Shown here: positions 2,977 to 25,183 of the stretch, piece by piece
How the letters are laid out: every line of letters begins with the position of its first letter
Position numbering within the stretch: position 1 is the stretch's first letter
Virus record (IMG/VR): IMGVR_UViG_3300042937_000629
Coordinates: 1-25,183 of that record
Strand: one strand, 5' to 3'
From: a virus
DNA length: 25,183 nucleotides
Notes under the pieces: generated by a model
What the model was told of the DNA's origin: nothing
The model's input: the letters and a program-made list of their open reading frames with translations, nothing else
Databases searched by the model: none
Translations under genes and position numbers: made by a program

Positions 2977-3549
2977 ATGGGCCGCAAGTCTTCAATCATC
3001 CGCCTACCCGAAGCGATCAAGTCCTATATCGAAGGCAAACTGGCAGAGGGCCAGTTGACCTTGGATGAGCTGATCAGCGACCTGCGTGCCCGCTTCCCGG
3101 AACAAGCCGAGGAAGGCGAGCTGCCCAGTCGGGCGGCGGTGCATCGTTATGGCCAAAAGCTGGAGAGGCGTTTGTCGGCGATCCGCGCCAGTACCGAGGC
3201 TGCAAAGATCATCCGCGCCCAGGCCGGCGACAAGGAAGACGCCCGCAGTGAGGCATTGACCGCGATGATTCAGTCCGAGCTGTTCGAGTCGATCATGGCC
3301 CTGCAGGAAGCCGGTGACGATGAGATGGACCCCGCCGAGCGGGTGGGTTTGCTGGCGACGGCTGCCAAGAACATCGCCACCCTTACGCGCAGCTCGGTCA
3401 CCCTGAAGAAGTACCAGAACGAAGCCGAGGAGCGAGCCCGTAAGGCGCTGCTTGCGGAGCAGGCCGTGAAGCTCGATGAGATGGGCAAAGCTGGCACCCT
3501 CAGCGCCGAGACCCTGCAGCGCATCCGTCAGGAGGTCTACGGGCTATGA
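2977..3549 (+). CDS. Mu gp27-like protein (DUF3486), probable small terminase
   Basis: 190 residues from ATG 2977 (MGRKSSIIRLPEAIKSYIEGKL). The N-terminal part has the feel of a helix-turn-helix or DNA-binding region (LPEAIKSYI..TLDELISDLRARFP...PSRAAVHRYGQKLE), followed by long helices with many E, A and K. This matches the DUF3486/Mu gp27 family, encoded directly before the large terminase in Mu-like phages and thought to act as the small terminase subunit. No clear SD precedes 2977; an in-frame GTG at 2968 is an alternative. Translation probably depends on the upstream gene, so the amber codon there might reduce its expression. It ends in an ATGA overlap with the large terminase. Confidence 0.8.
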   Translation: MGRKSSIIRLPEAIKSYIEGKLAEGQLTLDELISDLRARFPEQAEEGELPSRAAVHRYGQKLERRLSAIRASTEAAKIIRAQAGDKEDARSEALTAMIQSELFESIMALQEAGDDEMDPAERVGLLATAAKNIATLTRSSVTLKKYQNEAEERARKALLAEQAVKLDEMGKAGTLSAETLQRIRQEVYGL

Positions 3550-4874
3550 GCAACAAGCAGCCTGCTATCCAGCTGTTCAACTACCAGAAGCAATGGCTGC
3601 TTGATCGCGAGCGCTTCAAGATCGCCATGTTTGCGCGTCAGACGGGCAAGACTTTCACCAGCACCCTAGAGATCGTCGATGACTGCTTCGAGGTCGAGTC
3701 GCGCGGTGGCCGCACTCGCTGGGTGATCCTGTCCCGAGGGGAGCGCCAGGCCAAGGAGGCCATGGAGGAAGGCGTGAAGAAGCACTGCCGCGCCTACAAC
3801 ATGGCGGTGCAGGAGATCGAGGGCGAGTTCAAGGGCAGCAACGGTGAGCGCTTCACCATGCTCGACGTGGTGCTGCCGGGCGGTTCCAGGATCACCGCGC
3901 TGCCGGCCAATCCCGACACCGCTCGGGGCTTCAGTGCCAACGTGTTCCTGGACGAGTTCGCCTTCCACCAGGACAGCCGCAAGATCTGGACGGCGCTGTT
4001 CCCGGTCATCTCCAACGGCTGGAAGCTGCGCATTACCAGTACGCCCAACGGCAAGGGCAACAAGTTCTACGAGCTTATGACCGACAAGAAACTCGCCGAT
4101 GTCTGGTCGCGGCATGTAGTCGACATTCATCGCGCCGTTGCCGATGGCCTGCCGCGCAACATCGAGGAGATGCGCGCGGCCCTCAACGACGAGGACGCCT
4201 GGGCCCAGGAGTTCGAGCTGAAGTGGCTGGACGAGGCCAGCTCCTGGCTGAGCTACGAGCTGATCAACGATGTCGAGCATGACCAGGCCGGCCGCCCCGA
4301 TCTGTATACCGGTGGGCCATGCTTCGTCGGCGTCGACATCGGCGCACGCAATGACCTGTTCGTCATCTGGGTGCTTGAACAGGTCGGCGATGTGTACTGG
4401 ACGCGGGAAATCATCACCCGCAAGCGTGCACCTTTTCACGAGCAGGACGCATTGCTGGATGACGTGTTCACCCGCTACCGCGTGTTGCGCTGCTGCATGG
4501 ATCAGACCGGCATGGGCGAAAAGCCGGTGGAGGATGCCAAGCGCCGCCACGGCTCCATGCGTGTCGAGGGTGTAATCTTCGGTACCGCCAGCAAACTGAC
4601 CATGGCAACGCGCGGCAAGGAAGTGTTCCAGGACATGCAGATCCGCATCCCCCTCGGCGACACCGAGCTGCGCAACGACCTGCACAAACTGCAGAAGGTA
4701 GCCGGGCCGACCGGGGCCCCACGCTTTATCGCCGAATCCGACTCGTCCGGCCACGCCGACCGCACCTGGGCGTGCTTCCTCGCACTCAACGCCAGCGACG
4801 GCCCCAATGGCCCGGTCATCGTTAAATCCCGTCGCCCACGCAAGGGCGCACGCATTACCCAGGGGTACGCATGA
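3546..4874 (+). CDS. terminase large subunit (Mu gp28-like)
   Basis: 442-residue packaging ATPase/nuclease. A Walker-A-like motif FARQTGKT is at residues 29-36 and a Walker B VFLDE at 133-137, followed by a coupling-type segment ITSTPNGKGNKFYEL. The C-terminal nuclease domain begins FVGVDIGARND with an acidic Asp near residue 264. The protein would cut and pump phage DNA into proheads through the portal encoded next. It is shorter than Mu gp28 as I remember it (about 550), so the C-terminal region appears compact, but the core motors and nuclease motifs are present. It overlaps both neighbours by 4 bases. In transposable phages packaging starts at the element's left end and runs into host DNA. 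Confidence 0.9.
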   Translation: MSNKQPAIQLFNYQKQWLLDRERFKIAMFARQTGKTFTSTLEIVDDCFEVESRGGRTRWVILSRGERQAKEAMEEGVKKHCRAYNMAVQEIEGEFKGSNGERFTMLDVVLPGGSRITALPANPDTARGFSANVFLDEFAFHQDSRKIWTALFPVISNGWKLRITSTPNGKGNKFYELMTDKKLADVWSRHVVDIHRAVADGLPRNIEEMRAALNDEDAWAQEFELKWLDEASSWLSYELINDVEHDQAGRPDLYTGGPCFVGVDIGARNDLFVIWVLEQVGDVYWTREIITRKRAPFHEQDALLDDVFTRYRVLRCCMDQTGMGEKPVEDAKRRHGSMRVEGVIFGTASKLTMATRGKEVFQDMQIRIPLGDTELRNDLHKLQKVAGPTGAPRFIAESDSSGHADRTWACFLALNASDGPNGPVIVKSRRPRKGARITQGYA

Positions 4875-7888: not shown

Positions 7889-9036
7889 TGTACTACCACC
7901 CAAGCGCGCAGCCCATGAAGCCAATCCATATCTTCAAACCCGGTAAGCACGTCGCCATGAGCGGTGTGAGCCTCAACTTCAGCGAGTCCGACCTGGCCGC
8001 AACAGTGCGTGCCTATGACCCGGCATTGCACGAAGCACCGCTGGTGCTTGGTCATCCCAAGCACGACGCACCGGCCGGTGGCTGGGTTAAGTCACTGGCC
8101 AGCAGCGCCGATGGTTTGGTCGCCGAGCCGCACCAGGTTGCCCCGGAGTTCTCCGAGCAGATCGCCAGCAACCGCTTCAAGAAGATCTCCGCCTCCTTCT
8201 ATCACCCCGACGCGCCGAACAACCCGGTGCCGGGCGTTTACTACTTGCGCCATGTCGGCTTCCTCGGTGCCCAGCCACCAGCGGTGAAAGGCCTGCGTCC
8301 TATCGAGCTGGCCGAGGGCGAGGAAGGTGTCGTCGAGTTCTCCGACTACGGCCACGAGGTGGGTGCCAGCCTTTGGCGTCGCCTGCGCGACTGGCTGATC
8401 TCCGACCGAGGTCTGGAGGTGGCCGACCAGGTCATCCCCGACTGGCAAATCAAATCCCTGGACGAAGTCGCCCGCCGCGAAGACGAGCCACGTCCGTCCT
8501 TTTCCGAACCAACCCCAACCGCAACCACTGAGCCATCGACCGTAGAGGAAAGCACTGTGACGCCCGAAGAAATTGCCGCCATCCAGGCTGAAAACCTGCG
8601 GCTGAAGAACCAGGTGCAGCTGCACCAGGATCAACAGCTCCAATCCCGCAAGGAATCCACTCATGCCACCAATGTGGCGTTCGCCGAGGAACTGGTGGCC
8701 GCTGGCAAGCTGTTGCCTAAGCACACCGCCGCGCTGATCGCCTGTCTGGACTTTGCCAAGGACGGTGATACCCCGCTGGAGTTCGGCGAAGGCGACGCCC
8801 GTCAGCCAGTGTCCGCTGGCCTCAAGGCCATCTTCGGCGACCTGCCGCAGCAGATCGACTTCGCCGAGCAGGCCAGCGGTGCCCGCCGCAGTGGCGACGC
8901 ACAGGTCGCCGACCTGGAGTTCGCCGAGAAGAACACCGATCCCGACCGCCTTGCCCTGCATGCCCGCGCCACTCAGCTGGCTGCAGACAAGAACATCCCC
9001 TACGAGTCGGCCGTGCGCCAACTCATCACCCTGTAA
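7888..9036 (+). CDS. prohead protease/scaffold protein (Mu gpI-like)
   Basis: 382 residues from ATG 7888; a GTG at 7882 and an ATG at 7915 (MKPIHIFKPGKH) are other possible starts, and none has a good ribosome site. The N-terminal half matches the Mu I-type protease: HIFKPGKHVAMSG, APLVLGHPKHDAPAGGWV with likely catalytic His, and KKISASFYHPDAP with Ser in an SAS motif. The C-terminal half, after a P/T/E-rich linker, is helical scaffold (EEIAAIQAENLRLKNQVQLHQDQQ). The enzyme would cut the scaffold during capsid maturation. ATG 7888 is chosen because it falls on the predicted +1 of promoter copy 2, which would make the message leaderless. Confidence 0.82.
   Translation: MYYHPSAQPMKPIHIFKPGKHVAMSGVSLNFSESDLAATVRAYDPALHEAPLVLGHPKHDAPAGGWVKSLASSADGLVAEPHQVAPEFSEQIASNRFKKISASFYHPDAPNNPVPGVYYLRHVGFLGAQPPAVKGLRPIELAEGEEGVVEFSDYGHEVGASLWRRLRDWLISDRGLEVADQVIPDWQIKSLDEVARREDEPRPSFSEPTPTATTEPSTVEESTVTPEEIAAIQAENLRLKNQVQLHQDQQLQSRKESTHATNVAFAEELVAAGKLLPKHTAALIACLDFAKDGDTPLEFGEGDARQPVSAGLKAIFGDLPQQIDFAEQASGARRSGDAQVADLEFAEKNTDPDRLALHARATQLAADKNIPYESAVRQLITL
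8557..9036 (+). CDS. internal in-frame start for a scaffold protein (Mu gpZ-like), nested in the protease gene
   Basis: Within the protease gene a GTG at 8557 is preceded by AGAGGAA at 5-bp spacing, right after the P/T/E linker. It would yield a 159-residue protein, VTPEEIAAIQAENLRLKN onward, containing only the helical scaffold domain. Mu and many phages make the scaffold separately from an internal start in the protease gene, so that scaffold exceeds protease. The ribosome site and domain boundary are seen; expression is inferred. Confidence 0.5.
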   Translation: MTPEEIAAIQAENLRLKNQVQLHQDQQLQSRKESTHATNVAFAEELVAAGKLLPKHTAALIACLDFAKDGDTPLEFGEGDARQPVSAGLKAIFGDLPQQIDFAEQASGARRSGDAQVADLEFAEKNTDPDRLALHARATQLAADKNIPYESAVRQLITL

Positions 9037-9050
9037 GGAGTTGAGCAGCC

Positions 9051-9974
9051 ATGCCTGACCGTCTCAAGCAACTACGGATCGTTGATCCGGTACTGACCAA
9101 CATCGCGCGCGGCTACCGCAATGCGCAACTTGTCGGCGAGGCACTGTTCCCGCTCGCCGATATGGACAAGGAAGCGGGCATCGTGCCGCTGTTCGGTAAG
9201 GCAGCCTTCCGCCTGTGGGACACCGAGCGCGCTATTCGTGCCCAGTCCAATGTGATGACCCCCGACGACACCAACACCCTGGACGTGGTGCTGCGTGAGC
9301 ATGACCTGTCCTATCCGGTGGATTACCGCGAACAGGCCGAGTCGATGTTCGACGCCGAGGCCCGCGCGGCTAAGCGCGTCAAGGAAGCCATCGACCTGCG
9401 CCGTGAAGTGTCCTGCGCCGCGCTGGCACAGAACGTCAACACCTACCTCAGTGGCGGCACGGTTGCCCTGGCTGGTGCCAGCCAATGGAGCGCCAATGGC
9501 GGCGATCCTGTGGCGGTGGTCGAGACCGGCAAGGAAGTGGTGCGCTCGCGCATTGGTGTGCGCCCGAACACTATCCTGATGGGTGCCTCGGTGTACGCGG
9601 CTTTGAAGTTCCACTCCAAGCTGCAGGCCGCACTGGGTAGCAACGAAACCAAGCTCCTCACCCTGGAGCACCTGCGCGCGCTGTTCGGCATCCAGAACAT
9701 CGTGGTTGGCGAAGGTCTGGCCGGCGACACCACCACGGCGGATATCTGGAGCGACAACCTGGTGCTGGCCTATGTGGCTCAGCAAGGTGCGGGCGAGAAG
9801 TCGGACTACGAGACCCCGTCCTTCGGTTACACCCTGCGCAAGAAGGGCATGCCGGAAACGGACAAGTACGACACCAACGGCGGCAAGGTGCGCTATGTGC
9901 GCCACACCGACATGTACAAGCCCGTGGTGGTTGGCGCTGACGCCGGCTACCTGATTTCCGACATCGTCGCCTGA
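9051..9974 (+). CDS. major capsid protein
   Basis: 307 residues from ATG 9051, with AAGGAG upstream. It begins MPDRLKQLRIVDPVLTNIAR and continues with LVGEALFPLADMDKEAGIVPLFGKAAFRLWDTERAIRAQSN, a pattern known from a widespread HK97-fold major capsid family, and has PNTILMGASVYAALKFH and a C-terminal YLISDIVA. It does not resemble the start of Mu gpT as I recall it, so although position and neighbours are Mu-like, the capsid family appears to be a different branch. Position after protease/scaffold and before the decoration protein fits the main shell subunit. Confidence 0.85.
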   Translation: MPDRLKQLRIVDPVLTNIARGYRNAQLVGEALFPLADMDKEAGIVPLFGKAAFRLWDTERAIRAQSNVMTPDDTNTLDVVLREHDLSYPVDYREQAESMFDAEARAAKRVKEAIDLRREVSCAALAQNVNTYLSGGTVALAGASQWSANGGDPVAVVETGKEVVRSRIGVRPNTILMGASVYAALKFHSKLQAALGSNETKLLTLEHLRALFGIQNIVVGEGLAGDTTTADIWSDNLVLAYVAQQGAGEKSDYETPSFGYTLRKKGMPETDKYDTNGGKVRYVRHTDMYKPVVVGADAGYLISDIVA

Positions 9975-9982
9975 GGTGAGCC

Positions 9983-10285
9983 ATGAGCGATAAAGCCAAG
10001 GCCTACCGCGTTGTAGGCATCGACCTGGACATCGACGGCGAGCGCGTCCCCGAAGGCAGCGAGATCGAGCTGGTGGCTGAGCCATCACCCAAGCTCGCCC
10101 GCTATCTGGAACTGCTGGGGCCCGTCGAACAGGCCAAACCAGTCAAGTCGAACAAACCCAACAAGCCTGCCGATCCGGCCAAGCCCGAAACGCCTACCAA
10201 GGACGCCCAGCCAACTGGTGAAAACCAGGGCAACGAAGGCGACGACAAGAAGGCCGACGACAAAGCTGAGGAGACCAAAGCATGA
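9983..10285 (+). CDS. small head-module protein with K/P/A/D-rich tail, unknown function
   Basis: 100 residues, with GAGGTGA before the ATG. Residues 1-48 look folded (YRVVGIDLDIDGERVPEGSEIELVAEP..LARYLELLGPVE). Residues 50-100 are low-complexity, rich in K, P, D, E and A, and probably disordered. A similar short N-terminal domain with a charged tail is common between capsid and decoration genes of Mu-like phages. It could be a head-decoration or assembly accessory; I do not recognise a functional family. It overlaps the next gene by an ATGA. Confidence 0.65.
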   Translation: MSDKAKAYRVVGIDLDIDGERVPEGSEIELVAEPSPKLARYLELLGPVEQAKPVKSNKPNKPADPAKPETPTKDAQPTGENQGNEGDDKKADDKAEETKA

Positions 10286-10614
10286 AGTCGCAACAAGTAA
10301 TCCTGATCACCTCGGTGGTGGCCGCAGTCGAGCTGACTCGCCGTCGCTTCGTTGGCTTTGACGGCAACGTCTGCGCCAACGGTGCCAAGGCGCTGGCTGT
10401 GGTCGAGGCCGACACCGCTGCTGGCAACGTCGCCCCGGCCAACGTCCTGGGCGTGATCCTGGTGGAAGCCGGCGCGGCTATCTCGGCCGGTGCTGAGGTT
10501 CAGTCCGATGCCAGCGGCAAGGCCATCACCAAGGCTGCCGGTATCAGTAACGGCATCGCCTGGGACGCCGCCACGGCGGCTGGCGATGTGATTCGCATCG
10601 TGCGAGGTATCTGA
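10282..10614 (+). CDS. capsid decoration/cement protein (DUF2190-like)
   Basis: 110 residues, A/G/V-rich with beta-strand character: TSVVAAVELTRRRFVGFDGNV, ANVLGVILVEAGAAISAGAEV, QSDASGKAITKAAG, and a C-terminal GDVIRIVRGI. The pattern RFVGFDG...GVxLVEAGAAISxGAxVQSDASGKA is typical of the DUF2190 capsid-cement family, which trims the outside of the capsid. It follows the major capsid by one small gene, as expected. Coupled by ATGA upstream; GAGGT near its 3' end serves the next gene. Confidence 0.8.
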   Translation: MKSQQVILITSVVAAVELTRRRFVGFDGNVCANGAKALAVVEADTAAGNVAPANVLGVILVEAGAAISAGAEVQSDASGKAITKAAGISNGIAWDAATAAGDVIRIVRGI

Positions 10615-10616
10615 CG

Positions 10617-10841
10617 ATGGATAACCAGCATCGCCAGATATCTGGCTACCGCGAACTGAGCCAGGCCGAGATCGATCAGATGAACGCCGTGAAGGCCAAG
10701 GCGGCTGAGGTGGGAGCGCTACTCGATTCGCTTTCGGCTTCAGCTGGCCTGGATCAGCGTTGGGTTGGTATCGCTCGCAGTCACCTGCAGCAGGGCTTTA
10801 TGGCGGCAGTCCGCGCCATCGCCCAGCCCACCACGTTCTGA
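10617..10841 (+). CDS. Acb2/Tad1-hairpin-like protein, candidate anti-CBASS cyclic-nucleotide sponge
   Basis: 74 residues, two predicted helices: about 15-41 (SQAEIDQMNAVKAKAAEVGALL) and 47-69 (DQRWVGIARSHLQQGFMAAVRA), ending IAQPTTF. The opening HRQISGYRELSQAEIDQMN and the RWVxIARxxLQxGxMAxVRAIAxP segment match what I recall of Acb2 (phage T4 Vs.4 and Pseudomonas phage homologues), which sequester CBASS cyclic nucleotides. Tyr11 and Lys26 fall at the positions I remember as ligand-contacting in Acb2. The protein is shorter in the inter-helix loop than the phage forms I recall. GAGGT lies 8 bases before the ATG. It is embedded between decoration and connector genes, so it should be made late with structural proteins. 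Function is inferred from family. Confidence 0.7.
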   Translation: MDNQHRQISGYRELSQAEIDQMNAVKAKAAEVGALLDSLSASAGLDQRWVGIARSHLQQGFMAAVRAIAQPTTF

Positions 10842-10849
10842 GGCCAGCC

Positions 10850-11281
10850 ATGCACTACTGCACCCGCGCCGATATCGGCAAGGCCATCCCGGAGCTGACG
10901 CTGATTCAGCTCTCCAACGATGACCCAACCGTCGAGCTGCCCAATGAGAGCGTGATCGAGGACGGCGTCCGCCAGGCTGAAGAGCTGGTGGACGGCTACC
11001 TGCGAGGCCGCTACGACCTGCCGCTCGATCCGGTACCGAGCGTGCTGCGGGATGCCGTGGTGTACCTAGCCCGCCACTGGTTGTACCAACGCCGCCCCGA
11101 GGGAGCGCTCCCCGAGGCGGTGAAGGACAGCCGCAAGGACACCCTCAAGCTGCTGGAGAGCATTCGTGATGGCGTGGTCACCCTGGGTATGCCCACGGGT
11201 GAGGCCGCACCGGAGCCGGGCAAGATCCGCGCTCGCGCTCGTCGCCAGCAGTTCGGCGATGACTTCCTGGGGCGCTACTGA
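10850..11281 (+). CDS. head-tail connector, Mu gp36-like (DUF1320)
   Basis: 143 residues from ATG 10850 (MHYCTRADIGKAIPELTLIQLSND). The helical core (VIEDGVRQAEELVDGYLRGRYDLPL..VPSVLRDAVVYLARHWLYQRR) is the DUF1320/gp436 pattern of Mu-like phages, a head-completion adaptor that sits under the portal. The earlier in-frame ATG at 10760 lies inside the Acb2-like gene and is rejected. A TGATG junction couples it to the gp37-like gene. Confidence 0.85.
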   Translation: MHYCTRADIGKAIPELTLIQLSNDDPTVELPNESVIEDGVRQAEELVDGYLRGRYDLPLDPVPSVLRDAVVYLARHWLYQRRPEGALPEAVKDSRKDTLKLLESIRDGVVTLGMPTGEAAPEPGKIRARARRQQFGDDFLGRY

Positions 11282-11751
11282 TGAGCCAGACCGAGCAGCT
11301 CCTGGATGCGATTGTCGAGCGTCTGAAGATAGCAATGGGCCGCAATCTGATGGTGGAACTGTTCCCGGAGAACCCGGCGCAGTACCGCCTCAACCACCCA
11401 CGCGGCGCTGTCCTGGTGGCGTTCGGCAAGTCGACCTTCGGCGGCTCCCAGGCCACTGATGCGATGTTCCAGGAGCGCAACCTGGTAATCAGCCTGACCC
11501 TGGTGTTCCGCCAGCTCAACGGCAAGGACGGTGCGGTCAGCTACCTGGACCGCATCCGCGACACGCTGACTGGATGGTGGCCACCGCATTGCGACCAAGC
11601 CTGTCGTCCGGTCTCTGAGCGTTTCATCGGTCACCTGCAGGGCGTTTGGCAGTACGGCCTGGATATCGCAACCCGTGCAACTCAATTGCAATCCATGGCA
11701 CCACCGGCGGGCGCGCCGCTGCTGCCACCCACCTTTGAGGGAACTCTATGA
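11281..11751 (+). CDS. Mu gp37-like protein (DUF1834), tail terminator/connector
   Basis: 156 residues. It begins MSQTEQLLDAIVERLKIAMG and contains the mixed alpha/beta body GAVLVAFGKSTFGG..., ERNLVISLTLVFRQLNG, YLDRIRDTLTGWWPP, FIGHLQGVWQYGLDIA, with the layout of the Mu gp37/DUF1834 family. Its position after the gp36-like gene and before the sheath indicates the tail-terminator or head-tail joining protein. One-base overlap with the previous gene and ATGA overlap with the next. Confidence 0.8.
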   Translation: MSQTEQLLDAIVERLKIAMGRNLMVELFPENPAQYRLNHPRGAVLVAFGKSTFGGSQATDAMFQERNLVISLTLVFRQLNGKDGAVSYLDRIRDTLTGWWPPHCDQACRPVSERFIGHLQGVWQYGLDIATRATQLQSMAPPAGAPLLPPTFEGTL

Positions 11752-11963
11752 AACTCAAGCGCTACCGCTATTCCGGCCCGCAGAGCGCTGCATCTCTGCG
11801 CGTGGGCAAGGCTGGCGAGCTGCTGGATGTCCAGCTGCTGCCAGGCCAGCCTGTTGATCTGCCACCCGAGCATGAATACACCCAGGTACTGCTGGCCCTG
11901 AACCACCTGGAGCCGTTGGCGGATGACGCCGCTCCGGCCGAGAAGAAAGGAGAGAAAGCGTAA
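11748..11963 (+). CDS. small protein before the tail sheath (position of Mu gp38/DUF2635)
   Basis: 71 residues: MKLKRYRYSGPQSAASLRVG, then VQLLPGQPVDLPPEHEYTQVLLALNHLEPL and a short charged tail (EKKGEKA). Mu-like phages carry a similarly sized gene (gp38/DUF2635) directly before the sheath. The relation here is by size and place rather than clear sequence recognition. Coupled by ATGA upstream and TAATG to the sheath gene. Confidence 0.65.
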   Translation: MKLKRYRYSGPQSAASLRVGKAGELLDVQLLPGQPVDLPPEHEYTQVLLALNHLEPLADDAAPAEKKGEKA

Positions 11964-13390
11964 TGGCTGCCAACTATCTACACGGCATTGAAACCCTGGA
12001 AGTCGAGCGCGGGCCGCGTGCCATCCGCGTGGTCAAGTCTGCGGTGATCGCGCTGATTGGTGCTGCGCCGGTTGGGCCGGTGAACACCCTGACGCTGTCG
12101 CTGAATGATCGCGATGGTGCCCAGTTCGGCCCCGAGCTGCCTGGCTTCAGCATTCCGCAGGCACTGGCCGGCATTTACGACTTCGGTGCGGGTACCGTCA
12201 TCGTGGTCAACGTCCTCGACCCGCTCATCCACCGCACGGACGTTGTGGCCCAGGCTCGCCAGTTCGGCAACAACGACCGCCTGAAGCTCGGCCATGGTGC
12301 GCTGCAGGTGCTGACGCTCAAGTCGAGTGACGGCAACACCACCTATCAGCTCGACACCGACTACACACGTGACATGCTCACTGGTGAGGTGGTGCGCAAG
12401 CCCGGTGGCAACATCCCGGCGAATGCCCAGGTCAAGGCTGACTACACCTATGCCGACCCGAGCAAAGTCACTCCGGCCGACATCATCGGTGCGGTGACCA
12501 TCGCAGGCCTGCGTACCGGTCTCAAGGCTTTCCCGGATAGCTACAACCTGTTTGGCTTCTTCCCCAAGCTGTTCATCGCGCCTGGCTTCTCGACCCTCAA
12601 CGCGGTCAGCGTTGAGCTGATCGCAGCCGCTGAGCAGATGGGCGGCGTGGCTTATATCGACGCGCCTATCGGCACTACGCCGCAGCAGGTACTCGCTGGC
12701 CGTGGCCCACTCGGCAGCATCAACTTCAACACCAGCAGCGACCGGGTGCGTCTGTGCTACCCGCACGTCAAGGTGTACGACGCCGCTACCGATGGCGAGC
12801 GCCTGGAGCCGCTGTCGATCCGCGCTGCGGGCCTGCGGGCCAGGGTGGACTATGACAAGGGCTACTGGTGGAGCAGCTCCAACCAGGAGCTGGTCGGCGT
12901 GATCGGCCTGGAGCGTCCGCTCACTGCACGGGTTGATGACCCGGACAGTGAGGTCAACCTGCTGAACGAGGCTGGCGTCACCACGGTGTTCAACAGTTTC
13001 GGTACCGGCCTGCGGCTGTGGGGTAACCGCACGGCCGCCTGGCCGACCGTGACCCACATGCGCAACTTCGAGAACGTGCGCCGCACCAAGGATATCGTCG
13101 ACGAGTCGATCCGCTACAGCTCGCTGCAGTTCGTTGACATGCCGGTCACCCAGTCGCTGCTCGATAGCGTCACGGAAAGCGTCAACCTGTTCTTCCGCAA
13201 GCTGATCGGTGACGGTGCGTTGCTCGGTGGTGAGTGCTGGTTTGACCCGGCGCGCAACCCGCAGACCGAGCTTGAACTGGGGCATGTACTGTTCAACTAC
13301 AAACTGACGGTGCCGCTGCCGTTCGAGCGCGGCACCTTCGAAACCGAGATCACCGGGGAATACCTGGCCAACCTGAAGGGGGCTGCATAA
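11963..13390 (+). CDS. tail sheath protein (P2 FI / Mu L family)
   Basis: 475 residues. N-terminus MAANYLHGIETLEVERGPRAI, then VKSAVIALIGAAPVG, GGVAYIDAPIGT, VRLCYPHVKVYD and the C-terminal sheath-domain text DIVDESIRYSSLQFVDMPVT, LELGHVLFNYKLTVPLPFERGTFETEITGEYL. These are standard features of contractile-tail sheath proteins. It would polymerise around the tube encoded next and contract on injection. The window therefore encodes a myovirus-type tail. Confidence 0.93.
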   Translation: MAANYLHGIETLEVERGPRAIRVVKSAVIALIGAAPVGPVNTLTLSLNDRDGAQFGPELPGFSIPQALAGIYDFGAGTVIVVNVLDPLIHRTDVVAQARQFGNNDRLKLGHGALQVLTLKSSDGNTTYQLDTDYTRDMLTGEVVRKPGGNIPANAQVKADYTYADPSKVTPADIIGAVTIAGLRTGLKAFPDSYNLFGFFPKLFIAPGFSTLNAVSVELIAAAEQMGGVAYIDAPIGTTPQQVLAGRGPLGSINFNTSSDRVRLCYPHVKVYDAATDGERLEPLSIRAAGLRARVDYDKGYWWSSSNQELVGVIGLERPLTARVDDPDSEVNLLNEAGVTTVFNSFGTGLRLWGNRTAAWPTVTHMRNFENVRRTKDIVDESIRYSSLQFVDMPVTQSLLDSVTESVNLFFRKLIGDGALLGGECWFDPARNPQTELELGHVLFNYKLTVPLPFERGTFETEITGEYLANLKGAA

Positions 13391-13955: not shown

Positions 13956-13986
13956 GAAGCCCCGCCTAGTGCGGGGCTTCGCTTTT
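13956..13986 (+). terminator. Rho-independent terminator after the tail tube gene
   Basis: Perfect 10-bp stem GAAGCCCCGC (13956-13965) / GCGGGGCTTC (13971-13980) with loop CTAGT, followed by GCTTTT. It would end the capsid-sheath-tube transcript. The T-run overlaps the stop codon of the convergent minus-strand gene. On the minus strand no U-run follows the hairpin, so termination is mainly for + strand transcripts. Confidence 0.85.
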
Positions 13987-14176
13987 ATCCCTTGCGCTTC
14001 AGGGTGCTGATGTAGCCGCGCAGGTGGGTCAGTGCGGCGTGCTCAGGATTGAGTCCGCGCAGCATAGTGCGCCGCTCGCTGCCATCGGGCAGGTAGGTCA
14101 GCAGCTCGTCGCCGATCTCGATATAGCTGGCCGTATAGGTCTCGCCTTCATGCTCCAGGGTAACGTTTTCTTCCAT
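13985..14176 (-). CDS. small minus-strand protein between tube and tail chaperone, unknown function
   Basis: 63 residues from the ATG at 14176 (MEENVTLEHEGETYTASYIE), with GGAGG five bases upstream on the minus strand; the codon before it (GTG at 14179) is too near the SD. Body: IGDELLTYLPDGSERRTMLRGLNPEHAALTHLRGYISTLKRKG, a beta-rich first half and a helical basic end. It is the only convincing minus-strand gene in the window, lying between terminator and promoter copy 3, an isolated position typical of morons or small regulators. I do not recognise a family. The start lies about 30 bases from the 21-bp element, so the same activator or a divergent promoter might affect it. Confidence 0.75.
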   Translation of the reverse strand: MEENVTLEHEGETYTASYIEIGDELLTYLPDGSERRTMLRGLNPEHAALTHLRGYISTLKRKG

Positions 14177-14206
14177 CACAGCCTCCGCGCTAGGTTATGG
14201 GCGCTT

Positions 14207-23087: not shown

Positions 23088-23675
23088 GTGATTTATTTCT
23101 CTCCCTCAGCAGCAGGATTCTTCCGCAGTGATGTTCATGGTGATCGTATGCCCGCAGATGTGGTGCCGGTAACCAAGGAGGATTACAACGCGCTTTTGGC
23201 GGGGCAGTCTTCGGGCAAAATTATCAAGCCAGACACCAACGGACATCCCGTCTTGGTAGATCTTCCTGCCCCCATTCTGACTAGCGAAAGTCTTTGCCGT
23301 GATATCGATCAGGCTGCAGACTCCGCCCGAGCTATGGTTGCCGGGGATCCGCTACGCGCTGTGGAGTACGAGAAAGCCGCCGTCGAGGCTCAGGTCTTCA
23401 AGGATTCCGGGTATCCGGCTGGGGTTGTGCCACGGACTGTGGCGGCCTGGGCCATCAACGGCCGTACCGCCCGACAGGCAGCGGACAACATCTTGGCTGA
23501 AGCAGCTGCCTACAACGAGGCGCTATATCAGATCCGCGAGGCTCGACTTAGTGCCAAGGAGCAGGTGCGCCAGGCCATGGCAGCCAACCAGGTGGAGCAG
23601 GCCCGCTTGATTGCCGCGGCCACCATCGACAGCATTCGCGCGGCGATCACCAGCATTGGTAACGCAGGAGCCTGA
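23088..23675 (+). CDS. tail fibre assembly chaperone-like protein
   Basis: 195 residues from GTG 23088, with GGAGG at good spacing. It begins MIYFSPSAAGFFRSDVHGDR, then MPADVVPVTKEDYNALLAGQSSGKIIKPDTNGHPVL. The second half is long, A/Q/E-rich helices. The N-terminal segment (xxYFSPxxxGFYxxxxHG...PxDxVxVxxxxxxxLxxGQxxGKxIxxDxxGxPVL) is the classical tail-fibre-assembly (Caudo_TAP/DUF4376-like) pattern. Such proteins help trimerise or attach the fibre encoded upstream. The first 150 bases share the lower GC of the fibre tip, in line with fibre tip and chaperone moving together. Confidence 0.85.
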   Translation: MIYFSPSAAGFFRSDVHGDRMPADVVPVTKEDYNALLAGQSSGKIIKPDTNGHPVLVDLPAPILTSESLCRDIDQAADSARAMVAGDPLRAVEYEKAAVEAQVFKDSGYPAGVVPRTVAAWAINGRTARQAADNILAEAAAYNEALYQIREARLSAKEQVRQAMAANQVEQARLIAAATIDSIRAAITSIGNAGA

Positions 23676-23677
23676 CC

Positions 23678-24135
23678 ATGGAGCGCATCCAGCTACTGTT
23701 CAGCACCACTCGCCACCCGTTCAGCGGTCTGATTCGCGTAGCCACCTGGTCGCGCTGGAGCCACGTCGCGCTGGTAGCTGGCCGCACGTGATCGAGGCCA
23801 TTGCCCTGGGCGGCGTGCGCCAGGTGTCCAAGGCCTACGCCATCCAGCGTGCCTCGGACTACTGCCTAGTAGAGCTGCCGGCCCACAATGCGCAGGCAAT
23901 CATCGACGCAGCGCGTAGCCAGATCGGCAAGCCCTACGACTGGACGGCCATAGTCGGTCTTGGTCTGCAGCGTGACTGGCAGGAAGACGATTCGTGGTTC
24001 TGTTCGGAGTTGGTGGCCTGGGCGGCCGATCAAGCGGGCGAGCCGTGGTTCCGCCAGGAGGCTTTGCGCCGAGTCACCCCTGAGCACATCTGGATGCTGT
24101 CACCCGAGCGAGGGCTCTGCCCAATAGAAGGATAA
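23678..24135 (+). pseudogene. YiiX/NlpC-P60-like papain-fold cysteine hydrolase, frameshifted
   Basis: From ATG 23678 (AGGAG upstream) the first frame reads MERIQLLFSTTRHPFSGLIR, VATWSRWSHVALVAGRT and stops at TGA 23789-23791 after 37 residues. The -1 frame then continues with VIEAIALGGVRQVSKAYAIQ, LVELPAHNAQAIIDAARSQI, GKPYDWTAIVGLGLQRDWQ, WFCSELVAWAADQAG, HIWMLSPE. Together they make one permuted papain-like protein with a likely catalytic His29 (WSHVAL) and a Cys (WFCSE). The frame relation fits loss of one base near 23775-23788, perhaps in the CC run before GCAC. It could be decay or a sequencing error. A GTG at 23788 could start the second part, but it lacks an SD and the His. Confidence 0.75.
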
Positions 24136-24211: not shown

Positions 24212-24244
24212 GGCCCCCTGCTCACGCGTGAGCGGCGGGGAGCC
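24212..24244 (+). promoter_or_regulatory. 14-bp palindrome within an extended hairpin upstream of com
   Basis: GCTCACGCGTGAGC at 24220-24233 is a perfect 14-bp palindrome. It is flanked by GGCCCCC on the left and GGCGGGGAGCC on the right, which can extend the stem with bulges. It ends about 25 bases before com. It could be a dimeric-protein operator controlling the modification genes, or a leader hairpin. No copy of the 21-bp late element is present here. Function is inferred from position only. Confidence 0.45.
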
Positions 24245-24269
24245 TACCAGAAGCGCAAAAGGTTTGCAG

Positions 24270-24464
24270 ATGATGAAAGATATTCGTTGTGGCCAATGTG
24301 GCCGCAAGCTGGCGACTGCCAGTGGCTTCACCGAGATACAGATCAAGTGCCCGCGCTGCCGGACACTCAATCACCTGAAGGCCGAGAGCCTCCTGTTACC
24401 GCCATCGAGCGCAACTAGCCATCAGGAGGCACCATGTCCGCACAACCGATCATCCCCTGGATAG
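24270..24464 (+). CDS. com: Com-like zinc-finger translational regulator
   Basis: 64 residues (MMKDIRCGQCGRKLATASGF, TEIQIKCPRCRTLNHLKAES). Zinc-finger cysteines C7-x2-C10 and C27-P-R-C30 match Mu Com (which reads similarly: KxIRCxxCxKxL...IxIxCPRC). Com binds the com-mom mRNA and frees the mom start for translation. AAAAGG lies 7 bases before the ATG at 24270; an ATG at 24273 is also possible. The last 31 bases overlap the methylase gene in another frame. Here Com would act on the methylase mRNA; a stem hiding its SD is present. Confidence 0.87.
   Translation: MMKDIRCGQCGRKLATASGFTEIQIKCPRCRTLNHLKAESLLLPPSSATSHQEAPCPHNRSSPG
24388..24430 (+). promoter_or_regulatory. stem sequestering the methylase ribosome-binding site
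   Basis: GCCTCCTG (24388-24395) is perfectly complementary to CAGGAGGC (24423-24430), which contains the full AGGAGG SD of the methylase gene starting at 24434. The loop is 27 bases. The left arm lies in the com coding sequence. The stem would block initiation unless opened by Com binding or by ribosomes translating com through it, as in Mu com-mom. Pairing is seen; the control is inferred. Confidence 0.6.
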
Positions 24465-25183
24465 GTGGCAAGCGCCGCCTTGCAGACCGGATATTTCCCT
24501 TGTTCCCTCAGCACAGCTGCTACGTCGAACCGTTCGCAGGCGGTGCAGCGCTGTTCTTCCTTCGCCCGGTACCGGCCGAGGTGGAGGTGCTGAATGATGT
24601 GAACGGCGATTTGGTCAACCTTTACCGGGTGGTGCAGAACCACCTGGAAGAGTTCGTCCGGCAATTCAAGTGGGCGCTGAGCAGCCGCCAGGTGTTCAAG
24701 TGGCTGCAGATGACCAGGCCAGAAACGCTGACTGATATCCAGCGGGCTGCCCGGTTCTACTACCTGCAGCAGAGTGCCTTCGGTGGTCGTGTCGATGGCC
24801 AGACCTACGGCACCGCGACCACCACGCCGCCAGGGCTCAACCTGCTGCGCCTGGAGGAGACCCTGTCCGCCGCCCACCTGCGGCTCAGCAACACCTACAT
24901 CGAGCACCTGAGCTGGCAGGAGGTAATGAAGAAGTACGACCGCGAGCACACGCTGTTCTACTGCGACCCGCCGTACTGGGAGACCGAGGGCTACGGCGTG
25001 CCCTTCGAGTTTGAGCAGTACCTGGAGATGGCTAGGATGCTCAAGGCGATCAAGGGCAAGGCAATCATCAGCCTCAACGACCACCCAGCCATCCGTGAAT
25101 GCTTCGCCGACTTCCACATCGAGACCACGGGCATCAAGTACACGGTTGGTGGTGGCAAGGGGAGCGAGGCGAAGGAGGTGCTG
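24434..25183 (+). CDS. DNA adenine methylase (D12/Dam class), 3' end cut by window
   Basis: 250 residues are visible from ATG 24434. Motifs: WIGGKRRLADRI (residues 9-20, FxGxK-type SAM/DNA site), YVEPFAGGAALFF (30-42, motif I), LNDVNGDLVNLYRVV, FGGRVDG, and FYCDPPYW (DPPY at 178-181, catalytic). This is an N6-adenine methyltransferase of the D12 class (Dam-like). It occupies the place of Mu mom, following com, and would modify phage DNA against host restriction. The target site cannot be told from sequence. Its SD lies in a stem with the com gene. Confidence 0.92.
   Translation, partial: MSAQPIIPWIGGKRRLADRIFPLFPQHSCYVEPFAGGAALFFLRPVPAEVEVLNDVNGDLVNLYRVVQNHLEEFVRQFKWALSSRQVFKWLQMTRPETLTDIQRAARFYYLQQSAFGGRVDGQTYGTATTTPPGLNLLRLEETLSAAHLRLSNTYIEHLSWQEVMKKYDREHTLFYCDPPYWETEGYGVPFEFEQYLEMARMLKAIKGKAIISLNDHPAIRECFADFHIETTGIKYTVGGGKGSEAKEVL

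Follow-up and report, generated by a model that had tools for sequence, protein, structure and literature searches.

An Acb2-family predicted anti-CBASS gene between the cement and adaptor genes of a Mu-like phage

A 74-codon frame among head genes

Does a small open reading frame lodged between two head genes of a Mu-like phage encode a component of the particle, or a protein directed against host defences? The frame occupies positions 10617-10841, plus strand, of the 25,183-base stretch of phage DNA analysed here (hereafter the window). The original prediction had placed a 74-residue, Acb2-like anti-CBASS sponge at exactly these coordinates, between decoration and connector genes. Reading of the sequence confirmed an ORF of 74 codons starting with ATG and ending with TGA, whose product contains both of the motifs quoted at the time, ISGYRELSQAEIDQMN and RWVGIARSHLQQGFMAAVRAIAQP. 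The neighbours were also as announced. The gene on the left (10282-10614, plus strand) encodes a cement/decoration protein (PF09956 Phage_cement_2, E 5.2e-13; phrog_673 'head scaffolding', E 7.5e-31), while the gene on the right (10850-11281, plus strand) encodes a Mu gp36-type head-tail adaptor (PF07030, E 3.6e-34; phrog_195 connector, E 1.8e-45). The gene for the major head protein (9051-9974, plus strand; phrog_1005, E 1.8e-107) lies upstream from the ORF, here called acb2, in the same gene run.

A putative ribosome-binding site, GAGG (10604-10607, plus strand), precedes the acb2 initiation codon by 9 nt and falls within the 3′ end of the cement gene. A simple scan of positions 8900-12000, with phage-specific late promoters outside its reach, returned no promoter-like site, and a search of the 25,183-base window against Rfam gave no match. 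Presumably, acb2 is co-transcribed late with the head genes. Acb2 is described as active upon induction but not while lysogeny is maintained (review PMC12043709), a timing that agrees with late-gene expression.

The window as a whole comprises genes for the head and tail of a Mu-like phage. It matches the Pfam models for Mu Gp27, Mu Gp36 and Com; a Mu-like protease scores slightly under the curated cut-off, and PHROGs identified the tail sheath. Among named phages the nearest is Komp_PAO1_1 of Pseudomonas (72.8% identity, with 84% of positions 8000-13000 covered). At the left end, an ORF cut on its 5′ side (3-464) shows hydrophobic stretches and matches PHROG 11791 (function unknown, E 4.5e-60) as well as, weakly, the '2TM' effector of PADLOC (E 2.1e-4). 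A 64-aa ORF on the minus strand (13985-14179), opposite to the adjoining tail genes, found no match in Pfam, PHROG or PADLOC. Near the right end, positions 23611-24135 encode a protein resembling permuted papain-like amidases (PF05708, E 9.2e-6, slightly under the cut-off). The interval 24228-25183 carries a Mu Com zinc ribbon and, after it, a gene for a type II DNA methyltransferase that is cut by the window end, presumably at the position where Mu has its mom gene.

Family, predicted fold and contact residues

The acb2 product matched the Pfam family Acb2_Tad1_hairpin (PF24729) over model positions 1-58 of 58 (E 1.6e-21; 76.6 bits, the curated cut-off being 27 bits) and PHROG 717 (E 6.2e-22), in which Vs.4 homologues have been grouped (Jenson et al. 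2023, PMC10097602). A tblastn search with acb2 matched 231 phage records and, together with the two profile matches, this argued that the ORF is not a chance frame. When the PDB was searched with phmmer, two Acb2 entries came first (8h2j, E 1.6e-14; 8ixz, E 8.4e-14), followed by T4 Vs.4 (7uq2, E 0.028). PF24729 was matched by seven of seven proteins, namely those of the window, PaMx33, T4, JBD67, AV002 and loci L033 and L157. PADLOC and NCBIfam returned no family for the 74-aa protein.

An AlphaFold2 (AF2) model was computed from an alignment of 37 rows, made up of the window protein and 36 chosen loci. The predicted monomer (pLDDT 88.1, pTM 0.71) has helices at residues 4-7, 16-41 and 47-69, the first of them in a low-confidence stretch (residues 5-7 below 50); this agrees with the layout of one short and two long helices described for Acb2 (review PMC12043709). 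Foldseek searches with the model placed Acb2 structures at ranks 1-6 (E 1.3e-4 to 5.5e-4) and Vs.4 structures at ranks 7-9 (E 0.018-0.022), the first unrelated match being Rop with an E of 2.6. VIA-align gave Z values of 8.6 for 8h2j_A, 8.5 for Vs.4 (7uq2_A) and 6.7 for the next unrelated chain. Since helical hairpins readily reach middling structural scores, the Z of 8.6 is not decisive by itself; the VIA values are weak alone but not weak in combination with the sequence evidence. The original prediction was to be abandoned if no structural match to Acb2 existed, and such a match was found for the AF2 model with both programs. The alignment further places V32, A53, G60 and A64 of the window protein at the hexamer-interface positions of Vs.4 (L29, A66, A73 and A77), and these residues are compatible with that interface.

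The residues of Vs.4 that contact cGAMP are given as Y8, H11, K23, R79 and F82 (PMC10097602), and the PaP2 protein structure has been solved with the same ligand (PDB 8H2J; PMC11722364). In the alignment, Y8, K23 and R79 correspond to Y11, K26 and R66 of the window protein and all three are kept; hence Tyr11 and Lys26, which had been singled out as ligand contacts, are present where expected and match Vs.4 contacts Y8 and K23. H11 and F82 are replaced by L14 and A69, the same L and A being carried by the Acb2 of PaMx33. Ten positions, I8, Y11, N23, K26, R48, Q58, G60, M62, R66 and P71, are invariant in the 37-sequence alignment, the window protein included. Among them, R48 is the equivalent of PaMx33 R67, which we take to be a trinucleotide contact. 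Profile matches, pairwise comparison of sequences, the predicted fold and the kept contact residues all bear out the proposed resemblance to Acb2/Vs.4, and this evidence supports assigning the 74-aa protein as an additional member of the known family.

By analogy with Vs.4 and Acb2, the predicted helical hairpin would assemble into a hexamer and bind cyclic di- and probably trinucleotides from the host CBASS cyclase. The bound nucleotides would be held uncut and the CBASS effectors would stay inactive. Hexamer formation and nucleotide sequestration were demonstrated for Vs.4 (PMC10097602) and have been reviewed for Acb2 (PMC12043709). Acb2 is also reported to trigger Panoptes by removing its 2′,3′-c-di-AMP (PMC12657218, PMC12657230), and the gene might therefore be lost as well as gained.

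State of the cement/adaptor junction in related phages

In locus L058, the flanks are nearly the same as those of the window (left, 95.0% over 3075 bases and 94.3% over 349; right, 97.5% over 434 bases and 97.9% over 375), and the cement gene directly abuts the adaptor gene, with both ORFs intact. The occurrence of a near-identical phage without acb2 makes the gene look like swappable anti-defence cargo. Comparison with the empty site suggests that this cargo is bounded by a direct repeat, TCTGA. The first copy ends the cement gene (10610-10614, plus strand) and the second ends acb2 (10837-10841, plus strand), after which come GGCCAGCC and the ATG of the adaptor gene. A crossover between the two copies would restore the empty site. 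In L060, whose adaptor is 95% identical to that of the window, the slot holds an acb2 gene with a longer loop, the contig beginning within the gene. Adaptors that are 95-99% identical are found across phages with empty, long-loop and short-loop states of the slot.

Other genes occur at this place. In L159 the slot is taken up by an unrelated ORF of 77 aa (2984-3217), of a protein type (75-77 aa) with no Pfam match and a weak PHROG match; in L279 and L282 an open frame of 146-150 aa with a signal-like start lies 3′ of the cement gene. It is possible that the small ORFs of these three loci represent alternative slot cargo. L254 carries acb2 at the same cement/adaptor junction (3336-3626), with the conserved Arg66 changed to Ser; this is possibly a loss-of-binding allele.

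A survey with the cement protein as query, in which near-copies were counted separately, yielded 79 loci. The adaptor was not detectable in 11 of them; the 68 that could be classified comprised 50 empty junctions, 12 with acb2 and 6 with another gene. A survey with the adaptor query, which overlaps the first, was combined with the earlier loci and gave 53 cases with this cement gene and adaptor: 43 empty, 9 with acb2 and 1 other. Six of these nine acb2 loci had been fetched by the acb2 query, the unbiased yield being L157, L158 and L165 only. In 66 of 118 loci (L062-L169), the ORF just before the adaptor gene matched no cement, acb2 or gp_unk model. Nearly all of these ORFs encode a head-region protein of another type, and the slot is therefore not comparable in those loci; most show a different protein of approximately 325 aa, in what looks like a swap of head modules.

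The inter-helix loop had been described as shorter, and it is, by 19 residues relative to PaMx33 Acb2 (74 versus 93 aa). Among IMG/VR relatives, 51 of 54 loci were considered (L053, L054 and L055 were left out as incomplete) and, once duplicates were collapsed to 38 distinct full-length proteins, 25 of these measured 77 aa or less. Being the commonest form in this set, the short loop is no sign of novelty. A match above the cut-off, mostly of a 76-aa form, occurred in 25 of 398 genomes belonging to the genus Pseudomonas. The cement query returned 12 other acb2 genes at the cement/adaptor junction, every one of them long (97-99 aa), and the short form is unusual there. The Pseudomonas genome matches (L178-L202) are nearly uniform short-loop proteins of 76 aa across species, with an RW pair that lacks its W. 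An in-frame TAG is present in 3 of 28 Pseudomonas matches. In L180 the 76-aa Acb2 gene lies near ORFs that, by eye, resemble holin, HNH and small terminase genes.

Two trees were built to distinguish deletion of the loop in place from replacement by a foreign allele; the second omitted L060p, T4 and L053, which formed very long branches in the first, and L180 was the only Pseudomonas-genome sequence included. The window Acb2 grouped away from the long-loop set and near short-loop proteins of phages that lack the window's neighbours, L002 (68%) being the nearest. A single clade with the long-loop set was not rejected (p-AU 0.0924), with few columns, a bootstrap that had not settled and a poorly resolved tree. 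Over the last 99 bases of the window acb2, 75 match L060.

We read the ORF as encoding a predicted anti-CBASS protein of the Acb2 (Vs.4) family, which a Mu-like phage, probably a Pseudomonas phage, carries as a single cargo gene within its late head operon, and put the probability of this reading at about 0.93. The location between the cement and head-tail adaptor genes would equally suit a virion or head-assembly protein. We consider such a role very improbable, however, given that L058 does without the ORF while its flanks are 94-98% identical and its neighbouring genes intact, that most classified junctions of the cement survey are empty, and that homologues reside elsewhere, for example in the T4 vs region or, in a Pseudomonas genome, between lysis-type and HNH/terminase-type genes. 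A head structural protein was rejected on the ground of the empty site in L058. The name of the matching Pfam model, which joins Acb2 to Tad1, might suggest a Tad1-type Thoeris sponge binding gcADPR, but in the AF2 model the 15 residues ahead of the first long helix form no strand, and both phmmer against the PDB and Foldseek returned Acb2 and Vs.4 and no Tad1. Tad1 chains are likewise missing from the VIA list, which is not evidence either way. The Tad1 assignment, hardly credible in our view, was rejected on architecture, the model having no N-terminal beta-sheet, and by this model the protein is Acb2-type, not Tad1-type. The in-frame TAG codons of Pseudomonas matches and the Arg66 substitution of L254 would be in keeping with a decayed or silenced family member that no longer binds and is retained by chance. 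For the window gene this appears improbable: its frame is intact and its product keeps 10 of the 10 invariant columns, being itself one of the 37 sequences.

Compatible with the anti-CBASS assignment, the short loop might alter the range of ligands, for instance through weaker or changed binding of cyclic trinucleotides at the channel ends, and direct the protein to other CBASS types than those of long-loop alleles. Cyclic trinucleotides are described as sitting at the channel ends, at the trimer interface and apart from the dinucleotide pocket (review PMC12043709). The 19-residue difference from PaMx33 Acb2 would favour such a shift, as would the 97-99 aa length of the other junction proteins and the longer loop of L060 next to a 95% identical adaptor. 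Against it, the prevalent short loops may simply be the plain version of the protein; we hold the idea to be doubtful. Tentatively, the site 5′ of the gp36-type adaptor might be a standing cargo slot of Mu-like phages, reused for sponges, in which loop-length alleles with differing ligand ranges are exchanged under opposing pressures from CBASS (to keep) and Panoptes (to lose). A literature search, with Huiting 2023 and Cao 2024 outside its coverage, found no paper dedicated to short-loop Acb2 or to this slot. A short, well-marked Acb2 in a Mu-like lineage is, on its own, expected biology. The window and L058 provide a natural near-isogenic pair, with acb2 present and absent, and L060 a long-loop relative; these three states are suited to asking whether the loop sets the range of alarm nucleotides and whether Panoptes drives gene loss.

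Comparison with Acb2, Vs.4 and Tad1 proteins

The Acb2 proteins of PaMx33 and PaP2 (8h2j, 8h2x, 8ixz) share with the window protein the Pfam domain, 47% identity and the predicted fold. The MDNQH start, GYR, K26, RW and RAIAQP...F are common to PaMx33 Acb2 and the window protein, whereas PaMx33 Acb2 has 19 residues more between the helices and its gene (ORF24) occupies a different site, 3′ of a MazG-like gene and directly before a terminator. T4 Vs.4 (7uq2) is alike in fold (VIA Z 8.5) and in the equivalents of Y8, K23 and R79; it differs in overall sequence (26-28% identity), in having H11 and F82 in place of L14 and A69, and in lacking the RW pair. Tad1 is covered by the same Pfam hairpin model, but its two helices are preceded by an N-terminal antiparallel beta-sheet (review PMC12043709). 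As this beta domain is missing from the window protein, activity against Thoeris would not be expected. The long-loop Acb2 proteins of L165, L157 and L158 (Burkholderia, Pandoraea and a Dechloromonas MAG) have the same cement and adaptor neighbours, and in L157 and L165 TCTGA ends both the cement gene and acb2; these proteins are 98 aa long, with a middle part exceeding that of the window protein by 24 residues.

The position among head genes has a precedent in JBD67, a B3-like, Mu-like phage in which gp34 (108 aa), immediately 5′ of adaptor gp35, is an Acb2 homologue, 34 residues longer than the window protein and 37% identical to it (tblastn). Its gp33 was considered as the Acb2 of this phage and rejected. 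Deletion of acb2 from JBD67, with an anti-CBASS phenotype, has been reported (PMC13083879; review PMC12043709); gp34 is presumably the gene concerned, being the sole place matched in the JBD67 record. Several B3-like records, vB_Pae_CF53b among them, label the acb2 stretch of JBD67 type 'NAD/FAD-utilizing enzyme', which looks like a misannotation. A query with the B3-type adaptor found acb2 before the adaptor gene in 15 of 17 IMG/VR loci; AV002 has the same arrangement as JBD67, B3 does not. Since B3-like phages, JBD67 included, carry acb2 directly 5′ of the adaptor gene, the head-gene position is not new. Mu-like phages of P. aeruginosa are also described as bearing single accessory genes, including anti-CRISPRs, at fixed sites (PMC4378225). 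Both the family of the window's acb2 gene and the kind of place it occupies are known ones.
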